From positions 1-64,000 of the IMG/VR virus record IMGVR_UViG_3300013116_000108: a stretch of 64,000 nt of DNA. One strand, written 5' to 3'. The DNA is from a virus. The number at the start of each line of letters is the position of its first letter. Positions within the stretch are counted from its first letter, which is position 1. Under the pieces are notes generated by a model that ran no database searches, was not told the origin of the DNA, and worked only from the letters and a program-made list of their open reading frames with translations. Position numbers and translations under genes: made by a program. Shown here piece after piece: positions 39,998-54,374 of this stretch.

Positions 39998-40306
39998 TTA
40001 TTCCTTTTCTATTTTTACTTGTAATGGGAAACCTCTGCTTCGAGCAAGTACTGTTACTTCTATTCCTTTTTGCTCAGCAATTTCATAAGGTAATACGGCT
40101 ACTACAGCCATGCCATCCTCGTGGATTTTTACTGTAATGCCTTCAGCGTCATCTGGATTGTAATCAAATATGTCTAATAATGTTTCAACAACAAATTCCA
40201 TTGTTGTTAATTCGTCATTCATATAAATGACTTTATACAGGCCAGGTTCAGTAACTTTTATTCGTGTTACTGTGGACGGTTTTTCTTTTATTTGTGTGTC
40301 GCTCAT
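39998..40306 (-). CDS. clpS: ClpS-like N-degron adaptor
   Basis: The 102-residue protein matches ClpS. YKVIYMNDELTTMEFVVETL aligns with the YKVxLxNDDxTPMEFVVxVL helix and holds the Asn-Asp and Met of the N-degron pocket. VKIHEDGMAVVAV holds the pocket His, and FPLQVKIEKE is the standard end. ClpS delivers proteins with bulky N-terminal residues to ClpA. No ClpA is encoded here, so it either uses the host's or works with phage ClpX. It has its own promoter. Confidence 0.88.
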   Translation of the reverse strand: MSDTQIKEKPSTVTRIKVTEPGLYKVIYMNDELTTMEFVVETLLDIFDYNPDDAEGITVKIHEDGMAVVAVLPYEIAEQKGIEVTVLARSRGFPLQVKIEKE

Positions 40307-40330
40307 AGTTACCTCTTGTTAGTAACTGTT

Positions 40331-40359
40331 ATTATAACAAAAATTGAGTATGTTGTCAA
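40331..40359 (-). promoter_or_regulatory. Sigma70-type promoter for clpS
   Basis: On the minus strand TTGACA (40359-40354) and TATAAT (40336-40331) are perfect with 17 bases between. The clpS ATG (40306) lies 25 bases past the -10, with AGAGG upstream of it. Confidence 0.85.
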
Positions 40360-40360
40360 G

Positions 40361-40400
40361 AAAAAAGATAGGATTAGCCAAAATAAACTAACCCTATCTT
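40361..40400 (-). terminator. Rho-independent terminator after hsp20
   Basis: On the minus strand AAGATAGGGTTAG pairs with CTAATCCTATCTT across a short loop and is followed by TTTT. It ends hsp20 transcription immediately before the clpS promoter. Confidence 0.8.
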
Positions 40401-40416
40401 CAATTGTTAACTAGAA

Positions 40417-40845
40417 TTATTTGATACTAATTGTTCTTGGCTTTTTGGCCTCAGGAACAATTTTCTCCAATGATACTTTTAGTAAGCCATCTTTTAATTC
40501 CGCCCCATTTACAACTACGTCATCAGCAATAGTGAAAGATCTCTTGAATTGACGTTTTGAAATTCCTCTGTGTAATACACTTGGATCTTCGCTTTCGTCT
40601 TTTTCACTTTGAACTGAATTAACAGTTAGATTGTTATCAGCATATTTTACTTCAATGTCTTTTTTGCCAAATCCGGCTAAAGCCATTTCGATGTCATATG
40701 TGAAGTCACCTGTTTTTACGATATTGTATGGTGGAAAATTCACTTGTGGCATATCTGTCATACGTTCAAATGTATCGAACATATCGTCGAAGCCTACTGT
40801 GAATGGTTTAAGGTTATTAAAGATAGATAGTCTTGCGTTTGTCAT
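40417..40845 (-). CDS. hsp20: Small heat-shock protein Hsp20 (IbpA-like)
   Basis: The 142-residue protein has the alpha-crystallin domain at about residues 35-125: FPPYNIVKTGDFTYDIEMALAGFGKKDIEV through GLLKVSLEKIVPE, with the classic LxVxL-type strand. It prevents aggregation of unfolded proteins. Hsp20 is common in marine T4-like phages and fits the proteostasis genes nearby. AAGGAG precedes the ATG. Confidence 0.9.
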   Translation of the reverse strand: MTNARLSIFNNLKPFTVGFDDMFDTFERMTDMPQVNFPPYNIVKTGDFTYDIEMALAGFGKKDIEVKYADNNLTVNSVQSEKDESEDPSVLHRGISKRQFKRSFTIADDVVVNGAELKDGLLKVSLEKIVPEAKKPRTISIK

Positions 40846-40925
40846 TGTTTTCTCCTTATATTAAGCAAGTTAACTTTGTGTACCCGACCTTTCGGCGTAC
40901 AATAGTATTTAGCATACTATACTAT

Positions 40926-40955
40926 ATTATATAAGCATTAATGATAAAAAGTCAA
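40926..40955 (-). promoter_or_regulatory. Sigma70-type promoter for hsp20
   Basis: TTGACT (40955-40950) and TATAAT (40931-40926) are 18 bases apart on the minus strand. The rest of the 80-base leader has a TAAATAC motif and AAGGAG. Confidence 0.7.
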
Positions 40956-40972
40956 GTCTTTTTTGGAAATAA

Positions 40973-41002
40973 ATCCAAAAAAAATCCCCCAATTAAGGGG
41001 GA
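40973..41002 (-). terminator. Rho-independent terminator
   Basis: On the minus strand TCCCCC-TTAA-TTGGGGGA is a strong hairpin followed by a run of eight T. It ends the transcript of the gene at 41071-41403, just before the hsp20 promoter. Confidence 0.85.
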
Positions 41003-41070
41003 CTTTGAATAGTGTGGGATTTTAGTTTTTTTAGAGCTCAAAAATCCCCTGGAAAGTTGCTCTTGTGTTG

Positions 41071-41403
41071 TTAGGAATAAATGGAATTATCCCCAACCAC
41101 TTCTCCGTCCTCTACTTCAAACATCGCAAGTATTGGCGAATTCAACCACTGATTTAATCCATCACTAAATTGGATCTTATCAGCAAACTTTAACTTATCT
41201 ACTGGCTTTCTAAATGAACGCTCTAGTGCTTTCATCTTAGTAGCCTGTTCTAATGTAACTTTAACAATTTCGCCGTCATCTGTTTTAACAGTATCTAGCG
41301 GTTTAATATTTTCTTGTGAATCTTCAATTTTACTAAATTGGACAAACATTTTCTGTTGCTTGTAACCCGGACCAAACTCATCATTGTCAATCTTAAAACC
41401 CAT
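41071..41403 (-). CDS. Hypothetical protein
   Basis: The 110-residue soluble protein (FVQFSKIEDSQENIKPLDTVKTDDGEIV) lies between a sigma70 promoter and a terminator, so it is a one-gene unit. No family is recognised. The strong control signals on both sides suggest it is important early in infection. Confidence 0.55.
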   Translation of the reverse strand: MGFKIDNDEFGPGYKQQKMFVQFSKIEDSQENIKPLDTVKTDDGEIVKVTLEQATKMKALERSFRKPVDKLKFADKIQFSDGLNQWLNSPILAMFEVEDGEVVGDNSIYS

Positions 41404-41435
41404 TTAGAACCTCACTTTTATTATTAATACTATGT

Positions 41436-41464
41436 ATTATACACTCTTTATATCCAAAAGTCAA
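41436..41464 (-). promoter_or_regulatory. Sigma70-type promoter for gene 41071-41403
   Basis: TTGACT (41464-41459) and TATAAT (41441-41436) lie 17 bases apart on the minus strand. The leader carries GTGAGG before the ATG. Confidence 0.8.
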
Positions 41465-41470
41465 CCAAAA

Positions 41471-42097
41471 TCACGTCTTTTTTCCACCTTTTTTACCAAC
41501 TATTAATTTAAAAATAGCATTATGTCCTTGCTGTGTGTAAGTATAATCGTAGTTATAATGGCTATTTGTGGCTATCAAATCCTCGATTTTAGCGTGGTTT
41601 TCTGTATCTATGCCATATATGTTACACCAGCGAATAAACTGCTCAGATAATGAATATTTGTGAAAATATGGGGTCATAGTAGTCTCTAATAGTGTTTCGC
41701 CTACACACGGGCGTATTTGAGCCCACTCTGTAACGATTTTAACGTCTTTTCTTATAGTTTTAATAGCATTATAAAACCCCATATTATGCTCAACCAAACT
41801 ATCCGGAGTATGTGTCATTAATAACATATCACGTCTACGAGTAAAGTTCACATCTAAGTAATTGTCATTACTCCAATTATATACAAAATTTCCTATTTTT
41901 TGATGTACAAAATCAGGAAACATTACTATTATATTCTTATGGTCTTTTTGATGTTTAATAAATTGTTGAAAGGTATCTTCGTTAGATTCTGTAACTATAA
42001 CTTTAGGTTCTTCTTTGTAATGGTCTGCTAATTGAAGAACCCAATGTCCTTCGCCGTGATTGGTTATACTAACTGTGTCATTACCTATTACTAACAT
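41471..42097 (-). CDS. Hypothetical protein
   Basis: The 208-residue protein has an alpha/beta start (MLVIGNDTVSITNHGEGHWVLQLADHY) but no motif I can name. It overlaps the SGNH-like gene by 17 bases, so both probably act together. Confidence 0.5.
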   Translation of the reverse strand: MLVIGNDTVSITNHGEGHWVLQLADHYKEEPKVIVTESNEDTFQQFIKHQKDHKNIIVMFPDFVHQKIGNFVYNWSNDNYLDVNFTRRRDMLLMTHTPDSLVEHNMGFYNAIKTIRKDVKIVTEWAQIRPCVGETLLETTMTPYFHKYSLSEQFIRWCNIYGIDTENHAKIEDLIATNSHYNYDYTYTQQGHNAIFKLIVGKKGGKKT

Positions 42098-42884
42098 CTA
42101 TCTTCTCTTTTACTAATTTAGCAAAGTCTTTGTTAGTTTTTGGGCCAGGATGTTTACCATCAGAACCATATTCTTGTGTATTATCTAACAACTCTAAAAT
42201 ACCTGTTTCTAGCCAGTTAGTTTTGTCAATTTTATTTGCTAACTGCTTTACATTTAGTAACGGTCCATCTTCTATTTCACTTAAAAAAGTTAAGGGATGC
42301 CACTCTCCCCAATCACCTGGATACTTAAAATCGCCTGTATAAAACCAGTCTCCTCCATTTACAAACAAGTAAGGTTGCCCTATATCTTTAAAATAGTTTT
42401 GTAAGACATAGGCATTTTTAATTAAACTTAAAAAACTAGTTGCTGAGTCTTCTAACAAAACATACTGCCTACCTCTATTGCTATCTACCCAACTACCATG
42501 TTCTATACTAGCATAACCTGTTGGACCGTTATCTACTGTCCAAAAATTTTGAGTACCTTTAACTCTAGAATGTGTCAACGTTTCATAATTACCATCTATA
42601 CTACTTTCAGTTAATTGTGTTTCGTCAGTTTGCTTTTGAATACCTATTGTTTCCCAACGTGGCAAGCCTGTCCATTGAACGACAACCATTTCAGGCTTAT
42701 AGTGTTCACAGTAACTCCATGCTCTTCTGGCTATAAAATCATTAGAACTTCCGCATACACCGTGGTTAACTACTTTAGAAAAACCCAAGTGATTGGTCCA
42801 ACTATCTTTATAACTATCTAAATAATGGTAATGGCTGTTACTACAGCCTGATATGTAAACTGTGTCTATTAGAGGTTTTGCCAC
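42081..42884 (-). CDS. SGNH-hydrolase-like protein
   Basis: The 267-residue protein has a strand-nucleophile turn VYISGCSNSHYHYLD near the N-terminus, GVCGSSNDFIARRAW (block II-like) and, near the C-terminus, SDGKHPGPKTN, the DxxH pair of SGNH esterases. The GDSL motif reads GCSNS, so it is divergent. The family removes acyl or acetyl groups from glycans or lipids; a substrate cannot be named. Confidence 0.6.
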   Translation of the reverse strand: MAKPLIDTVYISGCSNSHYHYLDSYKDSWTNHLGFSKVVNHGVCGSSNDFIARRAWSYCEHYKPEMVVVQWTGLPRWETIGIQKQTDETQLTESSIDGNYETLTHSRVKGTQNFWTVDNGPTGYASIEHGSWVDSNRGRQYVLLEDSATSFLSLIKNAYVLQNYFKDIGQPYLFVNGGDWFYTGDFKYPGDWGEWHPLTFLSEIEDGPLLNVKQLANKIDKTNWLETGILELLDNTQEYGSDGKHPGPKTNKDFAKLVKEKIDVSNR

Positions 42885-42894
42885 TAGTACTCAC

Positions 42895-43200
42895 CTAGTA
42901 CATTCTCTTTTGAGAAAATCCCCATTGTGCTTCTTGTTCACGTTGTTTCTTTAACCAACGATTACGGCCTGCTTTTTTGGCTAGTCTTTTCTTTTCGCTA
43001 GGTTTTATAAAATACTGCCTATCTCGACATTCTTGTAAAGTATTGTCTGCTTGGAGTTTTTTCTTTAGTTTTCTTAATGCCTTTGTGACATCATTGTTGT
43101 GAACTATAACAGTTGTTCCACCTGTTAAATCTTGAGCTCTTTTAGGTTGATTTCTATTACCAAAGCCTGCTCTGTTATTGCTTTTTCTATTTACAAACAT
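42895..43200 (-). CDS. rpsU: Ribosomal protein bS21-like
   Basis: The 101-residue basic protein has a core VIVHNNDVTKALRKLKKKLQADNTLQECRDRQYFIKPSEKKR that matches bS21 (V..N...ALRR.K......L.E.R.R..Y.KPS..R). Residues before it are an extension. bS21 helps small-subunit binding of mRNA starts; phage copies are known in aquatic phages and can bias ribosomes to phage messages. It overlaps the clpX stop by one base. Confidence 0.85.
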   Translation of the reverse strand: MFVNRKSNNRAGFGNRNQPKRAQDLTGGTTVIVHNNDVTKALRKLKKKLQADNTLQECRDRQYFIKPSEKKRLAKKAGRNRWLKKQREQEAQWGFSQKRMY

Positions 43201-44363
43201 TAAGCCTCCTGTACGTCTGTGTCATTAATAATTACTTCCTTTCCTTTAAGTTGATCTAACTCGTAATAGTATTCAAGCAAAGTATTTTCTAATATACCTT
43301 TTAATGCTCTAGCACCTACCTTATATTGTAACGCAAGTTCGACTATTTTGTCAAGTGCTTTCTCCGAAAATATCAAACTAACATTATCTAAATCAAAATA
43401 GAACCTAGTTTGCTCAATTAGGTTATTATCAATATCAGCCAATACTTGTTTTAATTCATCTTTGGAAAGTTCTGTTGTTTGAACAACAACTGGAAAGCGA
43501 CCAATAAATTCAGGTATCATTCCAAAGTCAATTAACTCGCTTGAAATTAGTTTACTTTGGCCTCCGTGTGTTTCTCCAAACCCAATAGTATTTGTTTTTT
43601 GGCTGTCCATTCCAACAAATGCTCCACTTCCAATAAACAAAATCTTACTAGTATCTACTTCAATCATTTCTTGCTGTGGATGTTTTCTTCCACCTTGTGG
43701 TGCTACTCTAACAGTTGTACCTTCAACTAATTTTAACAATGCTTGTTGTACACCTTCGCCTGAAACATCTCTAGTAATTGAAACGTTCTCACTTTTCCTG
43801 CCAATTTTATCAATTTCATCTAAAAATACAATACCTTGTTCTGCTCTTGCTACATTGTAATCTACTTTCATTAGCAAAGAACTAATAATACTTTCAACAT
43901 CATCACCAACATACCCACTTTCAGTTAAACTTGTAGCATCAGCAATTACAATAGGCACATCTAAAAACTTAGCAATTTGTTTTGCCATAAAAGTTTTACC
44001 ACTACCAGTAGGACCAATTATTAATTGATTATTCTTTTCAATAGTACCTTTTCTATCATACATTAATCTCTTGTAGTGATTTACTACACCTACTGCCATA
44101 TGACGTTTTGCTTTATGTTGTCCAACTACTGTTTCGTCTAAAAATGCTACAATCTCTTTTGCTGTTTTGGGTTCTAATTCCTTTGCCCATTGCTTTGCCT
44201 TTTCATCTGTGAGGACTTTACTACACAAATCTATACATTCATCACAAATACCAACACCTTCTGCTACAATAATCTTGTATACTTGGTCTTTTGTTTTGCC
44301 ACAAAAATTACACTGACTGACTGAACGAATTTGATCTATACTAGTTGATTTATCATCTGTCAT
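43200..44363 (-). CDS. clpX: ATP-dependent Clp unfoldase ClpX
   Basis: I use ATG 44363 (AAAAGG upstream). The 387-residue protein is complete: N-terminal zinc finger (CNFCGKTK...CDECIDLC), Walker A GPTGSGKT, Walker B IVFLDEIDKI, pore loop GYVGDD, an RKHP loop like the one that reads the ssrA tag, and TNTIGFGE, the IGF loop that docks ClpP. ClpX unfolds tagged proteins and feeds ClpP, which this phage also encodes. The tmRNA tag at 54.1 kb ends in LAA, a ClpX signal. Confidence 0.93.
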   Translation of the reverse strand: MTDDKSTSIDQIRSVSQCNFCGKTKDQVYKIIVAEGVGICDECIDLCSKVLTDEKAKQWAKELEPKTAKEIVAFLDETVVGQHKAKRHMAVGVVNHYKRLMYDRKGTIEKNNQLIIGPTGSGKTFMAKQIAKFLDVPIVIADATSLTESGYVGDDVESIISSLLMKVDYNVARAEQGIVFLDEIDKIGRKSENVSITRDVSGEGVQQALLKLVEGTTVRVAPQGGRKHPQQEMIEVDTSKILFIGSGAFVGMDSQKTNTIGFGETHGGQSKLISSELIDFGMIPEFIGRFPVVVQTTELSKDELKQVLADIDNNLIEQTRFYFDLDNVSLIFSEKALDKIVELALQYKVGARALKGILENTLLEYYYELDQLKGKEVIINDTDVQEA

Positions 44364-44730
44364 TTGAGAGCCTTTTTTGTAATATCCAGTCAACTGGAAC
44401 TGTTAGTTTTCTATTATTTAATGAATCGTAATTCTCTTCATGATGTATATCATCACACCACCAAACGTTTGGCATAGACATCAAGTACCCTGTAACAATT
44501 TTATTTTCATATTCATTGCTTACAATAACTACAGATGATCTAGTTGCTGTATTAACAATCCAATCAACTTTGCTATTTTGTTCGCCTATGTGTAAACTAT
44601 AATCGCCGTATTTAGGTAATTCCTTAATATATTGCTCAACTGTCCAGTTATCACAACCTACAAGGAATACACTTTCTTGTTTACCAAACCAATAATCTGG
44701 TTCTGTTACTACTGTTACATTATTGTCCAA
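44353..44730 (-). CDS. Hypothetical protein
   Basis: The 125-residue product (FLVGCDNWTVEQYIKELPKYGDYSLHIGE) looks like a small alpha/beta protein. Its end overlaps clpX by 11 bases and its start overlaps the coiled-coil gene by 11. No function is recognised. Confidence 0.5.
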   Translation of the reverse strand: MDNNVTVVTEPDYWFGKQESVFLVGCDNWTVEQYIKELPKYGDYSLHIGEQNSKVDWIVNTATRSSVVIVSNEYENKIVTGYLMSMPNVWWCDDIHHEENYDSLNNRKLTVPVDWILQKRLSNDR

Positions 44731-45295
44731 GGACGTCCCTTCTTGTTAAGTAATTTGATACAGCCGTTTTTTCTTCAGCACTCAAGTCGTCAACATCTTG
44801 AGTATTTCTTGCTAACTGATCCACTAAGTGTTTAATGTAATCATTTGTTAAGTATGCTGATGTTCCATCTTTGTCTACATCAATCCACTTATTGCCATTC
44901 CATTTTTTAAGTTCATGTGGGTATACATTTGTTAATGTATGTAGTTGACCTTTTTCTGGATCTGCTGGAAAACTATCACCATACGTTGCTTTAACACCTA
45001 AGTTTTCTTCTTCCTCTTTTATTTTTGTTTTATCAATAAGATCGTATTTTTGACTTATTCTTTCAATAGCCTGATCTCTACTTGCTACTTGAGTTTGTAA
45101 GTCTATAATATCTCTGTTAAGTGAATCAATGCCCGAAGTATCTTTGATAATTACTTCTTTCTCAACTTCAACTTCTTTTATTTCAGGTGGTTTGTTTTCT
45201 AATTCTAACACTTGCGATTGTAGTGCTTGGTTTTCTTTTTCAAGTTTGGCAATAGTACTCGTTGCTTTCCTTGTTAGGTCGTCAACTTCATCCTT
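44720..45295 (-). CDS. C-terminal extension reached by -1 frameshift
   Basis: This open frame (about 191 codons) has no good start; the first possible one is a GTG at 45211. It continues in the -1 frame from the A9 run at 45302-45294. Its first residues (KDEVDDLTRKATSTIAKLEKENQALQSQVLELENK) are a coiled coil that continues the heptads of the frame-0 product. A globular tail follows (HELKKWNGNKWIDVDKDGTSAYLTNDYIKHL). It is best read as the C-terminal part of a fusion of about 729 residues with the gene upstream. Confidence 0.65.
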   Translation of the reverse strand, partial: KDEVDDLTRKATSTIAKLEKENQALQSQVLELENKPPEIKEVEVEKEVIIKDTSGIDSLNRDIIDLQTQVASRDQAIERISQKYDLIDKTKIKEEEENLGVKATYGDSFPADPEKGQLHTLTNVYPHELKKWNGNKWIDVDKDGTSAYLTNDYIKHLVDQLARNTQDVDDLSAEEKTAVSNYLTRRDVLGQ

Positions 45296-46905
45296 TTTTT
45301 TTGAAGGCTGGAATACTCCTTCTCTAACTCCGCTTTTTCTTCTGTGAGAGTGTCGTGCTCTTTTTGAAGAGAAGCCAATTCCGCTTTAGTCATTTTACCA
45401 CTTGCTATTGCTCCGTCAAGTTGTTCTTCTAACTTTAGCAGAAGGTCTGTATGCTCTTGTATTTTCATTTCAAGTTCCCTCTCTCTTTTTGATTGCTTTT
45501 TTTTTGATTCTGTTGGTTCTGGTTCTTTAGGCGGATGCCAAGGTTTGTGGCCTTTTTGTTGCCTCGCCCAACTTATAGTTTGAACACCTGCCAGCACCAA
45601 CATAATAGCAAGTGGGTCAAATACTAATACAATAATAATGATAACCCAACGTACAGCACGTTCGAGTAATTCGGTATCTGCTTTTTCACCATAAACAAAT
45701 TCAGCAATGTACTTAATTGGTCCTACTTCTGCTTCTAGTTTTCTATACTCTTTTTGTATATCAAACTTTTCATCAATTAGGGTATCAATCTTATCATTTG
45801 ATTCTTTAATCTTTGCTAACTGTTCATCAATCAAAGCATCAGCAGATTCAGTTGTGCCTTGCCCTAGTTGAGAACGTAATCTTGTAATAACTTCATTAGC
45901 ATTTCTAATTTCTTCTTCTGCTATACCACGTAAACGTTTAATTTCTTCTCTAGCATTGTTTATAATATCATTGTCAACGCCTGTGTTAGACTCTTGTGCT
46001 TCTGCTGTTTCTCTTAAACGTTGCTTTTCTTTATTTGCTTGTACAATAGCATAATTAAATTTTGCTCCATCTTTAATCTCTTTAATTTCTTCTAGTACTT
46101 CTAATCGTCTTGCTGTTAACTCATCTTTAAATTTCTTCAAAGCCGTTCTAGTAGCATAACCAAACTTGCCATCAGCATTAACACCAATTAGTGCTTGTAG
46201 TTCTTTAATCTTATCTTCAGCAGGCCAAGTTTCTAACTTGTTCATCTTCTCGTCTATTACTTCTATTTCGTCTAAGTACGGTTGAATTGTATCTGCTAGT
46301 TTCTGCTCTTCTCTTTCAATAATAGCATTTTGCTCATCAATAGCAGGCTGGATTCTTTCAAATGCTTCGTTGACTCTGCCTAGTTCTTGGTCAATAATTA
46401 ATTGTTGTTGATCAATAGCAGGTTGCTGTCTAGCATAAGCATTATTAATACGTTCTTCTTCTGTTGCTATTTGCTCTTGTATTCTAGCATCTTTATTATC
46501 GTCTTGATTTTCTGCGGCAACAATTTTTTCTTCCGCTCTAGTAATAATAAGTTCAAACCTGTCAATTTCAGATTCAATTCTTACTAACTGTTGTTGGTTT
46601 TCTTCACTTTGTGATGTTTGTTCAATATGTGCTTTAGATAAGAAACCAAAGATACCCATACTCGTAATAAACATAATGATTATTACTGCGGCCGCTAGGT
46701 AAGTTTTCATCCATTTTTTAGAATCAAACCAATATTGATGTAGCCAGACTGTTGTTACAATTTTACCAACTTCTAAAACACCACCCATAATAATTACAGG
46801 AACAACTGCGGCGGCAAAAATAGCCGTTAATCCTATTATTGAGTAGTATGCGGCAACACCTGATATACATAGTGCTACAAATAAAATGAAAAGTCCGAAT
46901 ATCAT
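45274..46905 (-). CDS. Membrane coiled-coil protein with peptidoglycan-binding motif; frame-0 product
   Basis: The first 100 residues hold two or three membrane helices (LFILFVALCISGVAAYYSIIGL; WMKTYLAAAVIIIMFITSMGIF). A long coiled coil follows, broken by LQALIGVNADGKFGYATRTALKKF, a PG_binding_1-like motif. Another membrane pair sits near residue 425 (WVIIIIVLVFDPLAIMLVLAG), then more coiled coil. It ends soon after CAA AAA AAA AGG, a -1 slip site with AGGAG 13 bases upstream. A membrane scaffold touching the cell wall is inferred. Start may be ATG 46908 or 46905. Confidence 0.75.
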   Translation of the reverse strand: MIFGLFILFVALCISGVAAYYSIIGLTAIFAAAVVPVIIMGGVLEVGKIVTTVWLHQYWFDSKKWMKTYLAAAVIIIMFITSMGIFGFLSKAHIEQTSQSEENQQQLVRIESEIDRFELIITRAEEKIVAAENQDDNKDARIQEQIATEEERINNAYARQQPAIDQQQLIIDQELGRVNEAFERIQPAIDEQNAIIEREEQKLADTIQPYLDEIEVIDEKMNKLETWPAEDKIKELQALIGVNADGKFGYATRTALKKFKDELTARRLEVLEEIKEIKDGAKFNYAIVQANKEKQRLRETAEAQESNTGVDNDIINNAREEIKRLRGIAEEEIRNANEVITRLRSQLGQGTTESADALIDEQLAKIKESNDKIDTLIDEKFDIQKEYRKLEAEVGPIKYIAEFVYGEKADTELLERAVRWVIIIIVLVFDPLAIMLVLAGVQTISWARQQKGHKPWHPPKEPEPTESKKKQSKRERELEMKIQEHTDLLLKLEEQLDGAIASGKMTKAELASLQKEHDTLTEEKAELEKEYSSLQKKRMKLTT

Positions 46906-46922
46906 CATGTATTTATCGCCTC

Positions 46923-48317
46923 TTAGATGTTATTAAGCATATTTTTCAACTTGCTCGCCTGTACATCTGCTGTAATTTTAGGTTCTTCTGTAGTGTCCTC
47001 TTGACCGCCTACAGTTGATCTAGTTTTAAGTTTTTCCACAACATCACTTGTATGCTGTTCTGGTTGATGGTCTTCGCCTAAATCTAATATTCTTAAACTG
47101 TTTATATCAAATCCTAGTTCAACCTTTTGTCCAACACCTGAACTACTTCTAGTTTTCATAAGTTGTAACTGATACTTGCCACGTTCTCTCATTGCTCTAC
47201 TTGTAAAGATACCAAATACATTGTCTGCTGTATTAATCTTACTAATACCACCAGCAATATGAGAGTGGTCAAATTCAATTTCTTCTACTGCTCCTCTGTT
47301 TAACTGCGAAGCCGTTACAAATAATACATTAAGTTCTTTAGATAAGTTTCTTAGTTCTTCACTAACATACTTGTCTTTAATAAACTGATCATTTGGACTT
47401 ACTTTAACACTAACAGGACTTAACAAGTCTAAATAATCAACTAGCATAAAGTCTAGTTTGTTTCCTGTTTTAATTTGTAGTTCTTTACAATATGCTCTAA
47501 TATCATTAATTGTACTTTGTGCTGGCATATACTTAATTCTTAAGTTACCTGCTTTCTTGCCTACCATTTTAACTTTAAAGTCTAAGTCATCTAAATCTTT
47601 AAAAATATCTTTGCTTGGAATATCTGTAAGCATACTATCAATTCTCATAGAACATAAGTTCTCACTTAATTCTAGTGTTACATAACAACCATTCAATCCT
47701 TTTAATGCCCAGTTACATGCCAAGTTCTGTAAGAACAAACTCTTACCAGATCCACTACCACCAGCAAATATATTAAGTTCACCTTTACTCATACCGCCAA
47801 ATAGTTTTCTATCTAGCATTGGCCAACCTGTACTTACTTGTCCGTTGTTATCTTTTAATGCTAACAATCTTTGCTTAGGTTCTAAGAAATAATCTGTACC
47901 TAAGTCTCTTGTCAAACTAATTTGTACAGCATCTTTGATTAATTTTTCTACTGGAGCATAATTGCCCTTCTCTAAATGATCAGCACTTTTTAAAATTGCT
48001 CTTTCTAATTCTTGTCGTCTTGTAAAGTTTTCAAACTCTTCAAAGAACCAACTGTAATGTCCATCTTGTAATTCTGGAGTTGCTTTTAAATTTGTATTAG
48101 CAAAAGCATTTACTTGTTCTAGTGTAGGCATTGTACTTTGCTTTTCAGCATGATCAAAAATAAATTCAGCCGCCTTCCTCAAACTTCTATCAAAGTTTTC
48201 AGCATTAAAAATATTTTGTACTCTGACATAACTCTGAGCATCATTAACCATCATTTCTAAAAATAGTTTTTGAAGTTCTACTGTATAATCAGTTATTTTA
48301 TTTTCTTCAGTTTCCAA
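46923..48317 (-). CDS. gp41: Replicative DNA helicase (DnaB/T4 gp41 type)
   Basis: The 464-residue protein has an N-terminal helical domain. The RecA-like core shows Walker A GGSGSGKSLFLQNL near residue 190 and Walker B LDFMLVDYLDLL near residue 290, plus the SQLNRGAVEE sensor strand. It unwinds DNA at the phage fork and pairs with the primase that overlaps its start by 11 bases. Confidence 0.9.
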   Translation of the reverse strand: METEENKITDYTVELQKLFLEMMVNDAQSYVRVQNIFNAENFDRSLRKAAEFIFDHAEKQSTMPTLEQVNAFANTNLKATPELQDGHYSWFFEEFENFTRRQELERAILKSADHLEKGNYAPVEKLIKDAVQISLTRDLGTDYFLEPKQRLLALKDNNGQVSTGWPMLDRKLFGGMSKGELNIFAGGSGSGKSLFLQNLACNWALKGLNGCYVTLELSENLCSMRIDSMLTDIPSKDIFKDLDDLDFKVKMVGKKAGNLRIKYMPAQSTINDIRAYCKELQIKTGNKLDFMLVDYLDLLSPVSVKVSPNDQFIKDKYVSEELRNLSKELNVLFVTASQLNRGAVEEIEFDHSHIAGGISKINTADNVFGIFTSRAMRERGKYQLQLMKTRSSSGVGQKVELGFDINSLRILDLGEDHQPEQHTSDVVEKLKTRSTVGGQEDTTEEPKITADVQASKLKNMLNNI

Positions 48318-53983: not shown

Positions 53984-54009
53984 ATTTTTTTCCTTTACAT
54001 ATATGTAAA

Positions 54010-54339
54010 GACCCTCGCCACTAGAGGCGAGAGCCCTCTTCTAGAAGATTTCTGTTGATAGGCATCTTCCAAACCCCGAGCAACTATGCCGCTAAGGCAA
54101 AGTCCTCATGAAACACATTATCGTTTGCGTTTATACGTTTTGTTCGCGTTAACCGAGCTTACATCCGGGCAACTCCACTCTCCTAATAACTACCTGTCGA
54201 TCCTTTTTCAACCCCATCATAAACACATTCATATAATCACACCAAAATCTGTGTTGTTACTTTTGGAATGTGTTTATGGTGGAGTTGCTGGGTACCGCCC
54301 CCAGGTCCAGATTAGCGTTTGAATAACTTCATCGTTACG
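54010..54339 (-). ncRNA. ssrA: Two-piece (permuted) tmRNA, tag ANDNVFHEDFALAA
   Basis: This stretch on the minus strand is a permuted tmRNA gene. First comes the acceptor piece, ending in CAACTCC-A-CCA (CCA at 54279-54277). A spacer follows with a perfect 12-bp inverted repeat (54266-54277 / 54219-54230). Then the coding piece starts GGGGTTG at 54215. GGGGTTG pairs with CAACTCC in 7 bp and keeps the G3-U70 alanine identity pair; GGATCGACAGG is the tmRNA D-like region. The tag frame (54128-54084) reads ANDNVFHEDFALAA then TAG, much like alphaproteobacterial tags. The T arm CTGGG/CCCAG has an unusual loop, GGCGGTA. A sigma70 promoter lies directly upstream. Confidence 0.92.
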
Positions 54340-54345
54340 ACATTA

Positions 54346-54374
54346 TTTATAACATAAAGTAGAAAAAATGTCAA
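54346..54374 (-). promoter_or_regulatory. Sigma70-type promoter for the tmRNA
   Basis: TTGACA (54374-54369) and TATAAA (54351-54346) are 17 bases apart on the minus strand, placing transcription start near 54339, just before the acceptor piece. Confidence 0.8.

Follow-up and report, generated by a model that had tools for sequence, protein, structure and literature searches.

A nine-adenine run conserved in a family of phage membrane-protein genes and its probable role in a programmed −1 frame change

Bacteria are well known to recode at A runs, with dnaX, TssM and type III secretion as described cases (PMC5009743, PMC3711429), and nine A/T is a recognised slippage run length (PMC5009743). 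In Citrobacter rodentium, two length variants of the membrane protein TssM are made via poly-A slippage and both are needed (PMC4256274). In some bacteria, the frame shift in dnaX yields the longer of the two products (PMC5009743). Among tailed phages, the well-documented frameshift is that of the tail-assembly chaperones; in phage lambda (gpG/gpGT), a conserved −1 frameshift leads to two forms, one short and the other extended at its C-terminus (PMC5009743). The gene described here takes phage recoding beyond these chaperones, to a separate and broadly distributed membrane-protein family. No report of this phage family, of its slip run or of its recoding was found in the open-access articles that were searched. 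Judged from the sequences, the recoding would be of a known kind and the gene family that carries it would be new.

The slip-run gene and its close relatives

The window is a stretch of 64,000 nucleotides (positions 1 to 64,000 of IMG/VR record IMGVR_UViG_3300013116_000108), and the metagenome-derived virus record that contains it has 204,100 bases. The slip-run gene lies on the minus strand, as do its parts, its downstream neighbours and the tmRNA gene given below. Its zero frame (45274-46908) encodes a protein of 544 aa with four predicted TM helices and a cytoplasmic coil, TM3 and TM4 being joined by a long coiled-coil loop. The 3′ end of this frame reads CTT CAA AAA AAA AGG ATG AAG TTG ACG ACC TAA, with the A9 run at 45294-45302 and the stop codon occupying 45274-45276. 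In the −1 frame, the open stretch begins 83 nt upstream of A9 and continues from the run to its own stop (44720-45302), adding an extension of 183 codons past the zero-frame stop and giving a predicted fusion of 729 aa. The end of the extension (44723-45037) encodes a C-terminal module, and a Shine-Dalgarno-like AAGGAG is located at 45316-45321, 13 nt 5′ of the run. A preliminary description of this DNA had reported the codons CAA AAA AAA AGG with a stop soon after and an AGGAG 13 bases upstream, all of which were found at these positions, and its other measurements were right within a few codons. It had also counted about 190 extra codons with no proper start; the extension is indeed open, but a GTG is present at 45211.

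When the gene was compared with three close relatives from IMG/VR (L001, L002 and L003; 67-83 % amino acid identity), the sequence CTTC-A9-GGA was unchanged in all of them. The zero frame was as in the window, with the stop at the common position 26 nt beyond the A9 start, and the −1 extension measured 183-192 codons in the four genes. Synonymous sites differed pairwise at 41-69 %, and 13 of the 30 invariant lysines in the four-genome alignment were coded AAA throughout. dN/dS was 0.10-0.15 in the extension versus 0.16-0.29 in the N-terminal part, and by this measure the extension is under purifying selection.

A pattern search of the whole 204-kb record found five A9/T9 runs, two of them inside the slip-run gene. 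The second A9 of the gene (45497-45505) lies 203 nt upstream of the first; it is A8 in L001 and L002 and lost in L003, and a slip at this upstream run would end the protein 12 codons on, just past TM4. The sole further genic A9 of the record (L175, record positions 65766-65774, minus strand) is in frame in a kinase-like gene, and the two remaining runs are intergenic.

Fused and split modules across the family

The motif VGPIKYIA, used as a query, retrieved about 145 family members, and two closer searches added more. The slip-run gene belongs to a large, previously undescribed phage family with a membrane core common to all members. In the AlphaFold (AF2) model of a single-frame relative (L021), helices at residues 10-37, 41-64 and 71-88 are followed by a helical hairpin loop and a long fourth helix (221-269), after which a disordered linker leads to a C-terminal domain. 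From the charged residues, we infer that the C-terminus is cytoplasmic. Two types of C-terminal module were observed. The first, present in the window, combines four short strands with two helices and has a W-N-G-x-x-W motif; the second is a short tail that ends in Y-[IVQ]-Q-N-x-E-Q...W.

Fold searches in PDB and BFVD gave no functional match for the protein or the module. In PDB, neither the module nor a full-length relative had a significant match; in BFVD, there was one clear match, a phage protein without a name, and there were partial matches to tail-fibre-type proteins, in which the similarity spans about 40 residues in the beta part. When the extension alone was compared with the phages collection, no matches were obtained. 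In Pfam, Tetraspanin (PF00335) reached 19.4 bits against a cut-off of 32.1, the likeness being one of helix order only, and a PG_binding_1 match was also below cut-off. PHROG matches were weak and of the coiled-coil or structural kind. Residues 231-264 of the window gene form a peptidoglycan-binding-like stretch (LQALIGVNADGKFGYATRTALKKF) in the coiled-coil loop, with an E-value of only about 0.1, and such a stretch would fit a periplasmic loop.

After near-identical tails had been removed, the module was in frame in 89 distinct members and split off in 47; the window-type module was in frame in 70 distinct relatives. The split members (21 CTD-type and 26 YQN-type) all carry the module in the −1 frame and none in the +1 frame. 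At the junction, 43 of the 47 have A9, and A8, A10 and A11 occur once each; the remaining member (L146, junction CCA AAA AAG GAC) has no long run. In several clades, an A run leads to the same modules. Split and fused members are interleaved in the tree, which needs at least seven changes, and each of the two modules is found either fused in frame or behind A9, repeatedly in evolution. Standard gene callers would split such proteins and drop the C-terminal module.

Some members show other arrangements. L080, the sister of the split L145, has A9 with its tail module in frame, so that a slip there would yield the short form and the polarity would be flipped. The sites of L045, L066, L077, L080 and L164 read xxY AAA AAA AAA with the long form in frame 0, and L215 has a ten-A run with the module in frame, the arrangement expected from insertion of one A. 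In six genes (L127, L149, L065, L066, L077 and L164), A8/A9 runs lie well upstream of the gene end; a −1 slip at these early runs would produce a short basic tail resembling KKRYRIIGRIKK, and the products are possibly truncated isoforms. In the L128 clade and its relatives (L183-L252), the zero-frame tail after the run is a conserved stretch of about 20 residues resembling KKKTYMIKDETGQ, and the same DNA also encodes the −1 tail. The conservation of this zero-frame tail suggests that both isoforms may be under selection in the L128 clade.

In the first set, the 3′ parts of the family genes contained 23 A9 runs in 83 kb and no longer runs, compared with 3 A9 and one A10 in 1,167 kb of coding strand elsewhere in the same loci, an enrichment of about 100-fold in loci that share ancestry and hence are not independent trials. 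When codons were redrawn synonymously with each locus's own usage, 13.0 A9 runs were expected in the tails and 21 were observed, while in background ORFs (200,000 codons) 29.4 were expected and none was observed. The excess in the tails is partly due to their being Lys-rich; since A9 is wholly avoided in the background ORFs, its retention in the tails is telling. The A9 is not a chance occurrence, because it is invariant in four genomes despite about 40-70 % synonymous divergence, because two of only five A9/T9 runs in the record fall in this gene, and because the 3′ part of the gene is enriched in A9 family-wide.

Agent of slippage and other explanations

Frames, conservation, selection and family-wide recurrence can be read from the sequences directly. 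A programmed −1 frame change, by whichever agent, is almost certain, and the slip run kept by dozens of related viruses appears to be a genuine control element rather than an artefact of sequencing. The preliminary description had proposed two products (544 and 729 aa) from a programmed −1 shift in a dnaX-like arrangement. The two programmed products are strongly supported by conservation, including the retention of A9 in all close relatives, but polymerase slippage had not been considered, and transcriptional slippage fits at least as well as the dnaX-like reading. That description had named, as a finding that would refute it, relatives whose two frames are fused and which lack the slip site; distant members are indeed fused, but the close ones all keep A9.

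The A9 occurs in three codon phases, namely CAA AAA AAA AGG in the window clade, xxA AAA AAA AAG in most members, and xxY AAA AAA AAA. Run length is constant at nine in all three, which favours the polymerase over ribosomal slippage as the agent. Conservation gives indirect evidence of what is expected under transcriptional slippage, a run of about nine A's whose length is kept regardless of codon phase. A two-isoform programmed gene with the polymerase as slipping agent is the explanation that we favour, with moderate confidence, from these sequence comparisons.

Programmed −1 ribosomal frameshifting of the dnaX type is possible and, in our judgement, rather less probable. According to this explanation, tRNAs would slip on A_AAA_AAA in the window or on A_AAA_AAG in other clades, aided by the Shine-Dalgarno-like element. 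In its favour, one of these heptamers is in frame at every tabulated site, and L146 has a bare A_AAA_AAG in place of a long run. However, the run is still nine long in those phases that could form the heptamer from fewer A's, and sites of phase 0 retain AAA AAA AAA followed by another base instead of AAA AAA AAG (the exception is L190, with A8). In phase 2, the third Lys codon is AAG at 39 of 41 sites against a usage of 0.32, which would suit a ribosomal site, but ending the run at nine requires AAG in this phase and the excess could merely reflect that. The codon before the phase-2 run ends in A at 40 of the 41 sites; this A lengthens the run and is unneeded for A_AAA_AAG, and it also adds a second overlapping heptamer.

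The stimulatory elements were compared as well. The AAGGAG of the window has partial matches at 13-14 nt in L002 and L003, but L001 and almost every other clade lack the element. When 21 A9 sites were scanned for downstream RNA structure and Shine-Dalgarno conservation, no shared signal was found; MFE z-scores for pseudoknot-free folds of the downstream 70 nt ranged around zero (+1.6 to −2.6), with no shared stem-loop. The likeness to dnaX is only partial and its details are weak; the heptamer of the window is A_AAA_AAA and not the A_AAA_AAG of dnaX. Gain, loss and reversal of the slip run make this family a natural experiment on polymerase versus ribosome slippage as the target of selection.

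Three further explanations are very improbable. The A run could be a phase-variable contingency tract, in which length mutations toggle genomes between short and long forms; L215, with A10 and its module in frame, does indicate that a length change can interconvert the states, but 43 of the 47 split genes have A9, as does each of the four close genomes, which is the picture of a stabilised and not a variable run. It is just as hard to believe that the extension is a separate protein, started at the internal GTG at 45211 and translationally coupled to the upstream stop. A GTG is present in the −1 frame of the window and L001, but in L002 and L003 there is no ATG, GTG or TTG in this frame from the A9 run to the stop, so that their extension is reachable by a frame switch only and independent initiation is ruled out; moreover, most relatives carry the module as an in-frame fusion. 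An indel from sequencing or assembly, or a decaying pseudogene, is scarcely credible even for error-prone homopolymers in metagenomic contigs, because the run and frames are alike in four independent assemblies, the extension is under strong purifying selection, and errors or decay would have produced both −1 and +1 instead of −1 throughout.

Neighbourhood, possible function and known systems

The slip-run gene is flanked by a DnaB-like helicase gene (46923-48317) and by a small downstream gene of the TEPD/TxPD type (44353-44730), and at most loci the family gene has a small gene like this one after it. Next are genes for a ClpX-like AAA+ protein (43200-44393; zf-C4_ClpX and AAA_2), Hsp20 (40417-40845) and a ClpS-like protein (39998-40306). 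These three, along with a gene for ribosomal protein S21 (42895-43200), form a proteostasis cluster (39998-44393). The window also contains a tmRNA gene (53993-54369) with the tag ANDNVFHEDFALAA, and an annotated tmRNA is present in Pelagibacter phage Mosig as well. At most loci checked, the order is family gene, small gene, and then clpX or dnaK with hsp20 and a ClpS-like gene; clpP was nearby in two. Neighbours were named from sequence motifs, except for the library-searched ClpX, Hsp20 and ClpS of the window. In the cultured Salicola phage SCTP-2, clpX directly follows the family gene and a clpS homologue is found two genes beyond.

We infer that both products are made, which agent slips, that the assembly is mixed, and any connection with the proteostasis genes. 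In the proposed mechanism, one gene would give two membrane proteins that share an N-terminus. The majority product would be the 544-aa form ending just past A9, and a −1 switch within A9 would yield a minority of the 729-aa form, with a longer coiled coil and the small C-terminal module, which is probably cytoplasmic. Most likely, RNA polymerase would insert one A at A9, and the A10 mRNA would be translated normally into the fused frame. Both isoforms would probably co-assemble in the inner membrane at a set ratio, with the module on some subunits only, and the mixed oligomer would adjoin the phage ClpX, Hsp20 and ClpS, or DnaK in other loci. By analogy with TssM, a mixed membrane oligomer in which some subunits bear a cytoplasmic module would be the simplest mechanistic reading.

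A link to the Clp and DnaK proteins is suggested by the neighbourhood alone. As a speculation, and an unlikely one, the family may be a widespread phage membrane scaffold beside ClpX/ClpS/Hsp20/DnaK, where the nine-A polymerase slip run would serve as an evolvable dial for the number of docking-module subunits and so tether a phage folding/degradation machine to the host inner membrane.

Among named phages, the membrane core is shared with SCTP-2 gene 195, Mosig_00157 of Pelagibacter phage Mosig and ORF242 of Xanthomonas phage XacN1 (26-49 % identity). These are hypothetical proteins that match in the core and not in the C-terminal module, and no A9 split was seen or reported in them.

We also considered a tail-assembly chaperone of the gpG/gpGT type. 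It was rejected as the neighbours are the DnaB-like helicase, the small gene and ClpX, and not tape-measure or major tail genes. In both systems, a −1 frameshift gives, or here would give, a common short form and a form extended at the C-terminus. However, the present gene encodes a membrane protein, sits between the DnaB-like helicase gene and clpX, and has a run of A's where gpG/gpGT has its G/GT slippery site. With dnaX (tau/gamma), it would share one gene with an A run and two products that differ at the C-terminus, but the protein is different, the Shine-Dalgarno-like element and stem-loop are not conserved, and the heptamer of the window clade is A_AAA_AAA.

The tssM genes (C. rodentium tssM1, with A11, and Yersinia pseudotuberculosis tssM3; PMC4256274) encode, as here, an inner-membrane protein with a poly-A run near the zero-frame stop, at which transcriptional slippage takes place. 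The polarity of tssM varies among relatives, a slip leading to the long or the short form, and in the phage family the predicted polarity varies likewise. TssM, however, is part of a secretion system, whereas the present case is a phage gene whose A9 run, kept in dozens of genomes, would be the site of a comparable slippage.
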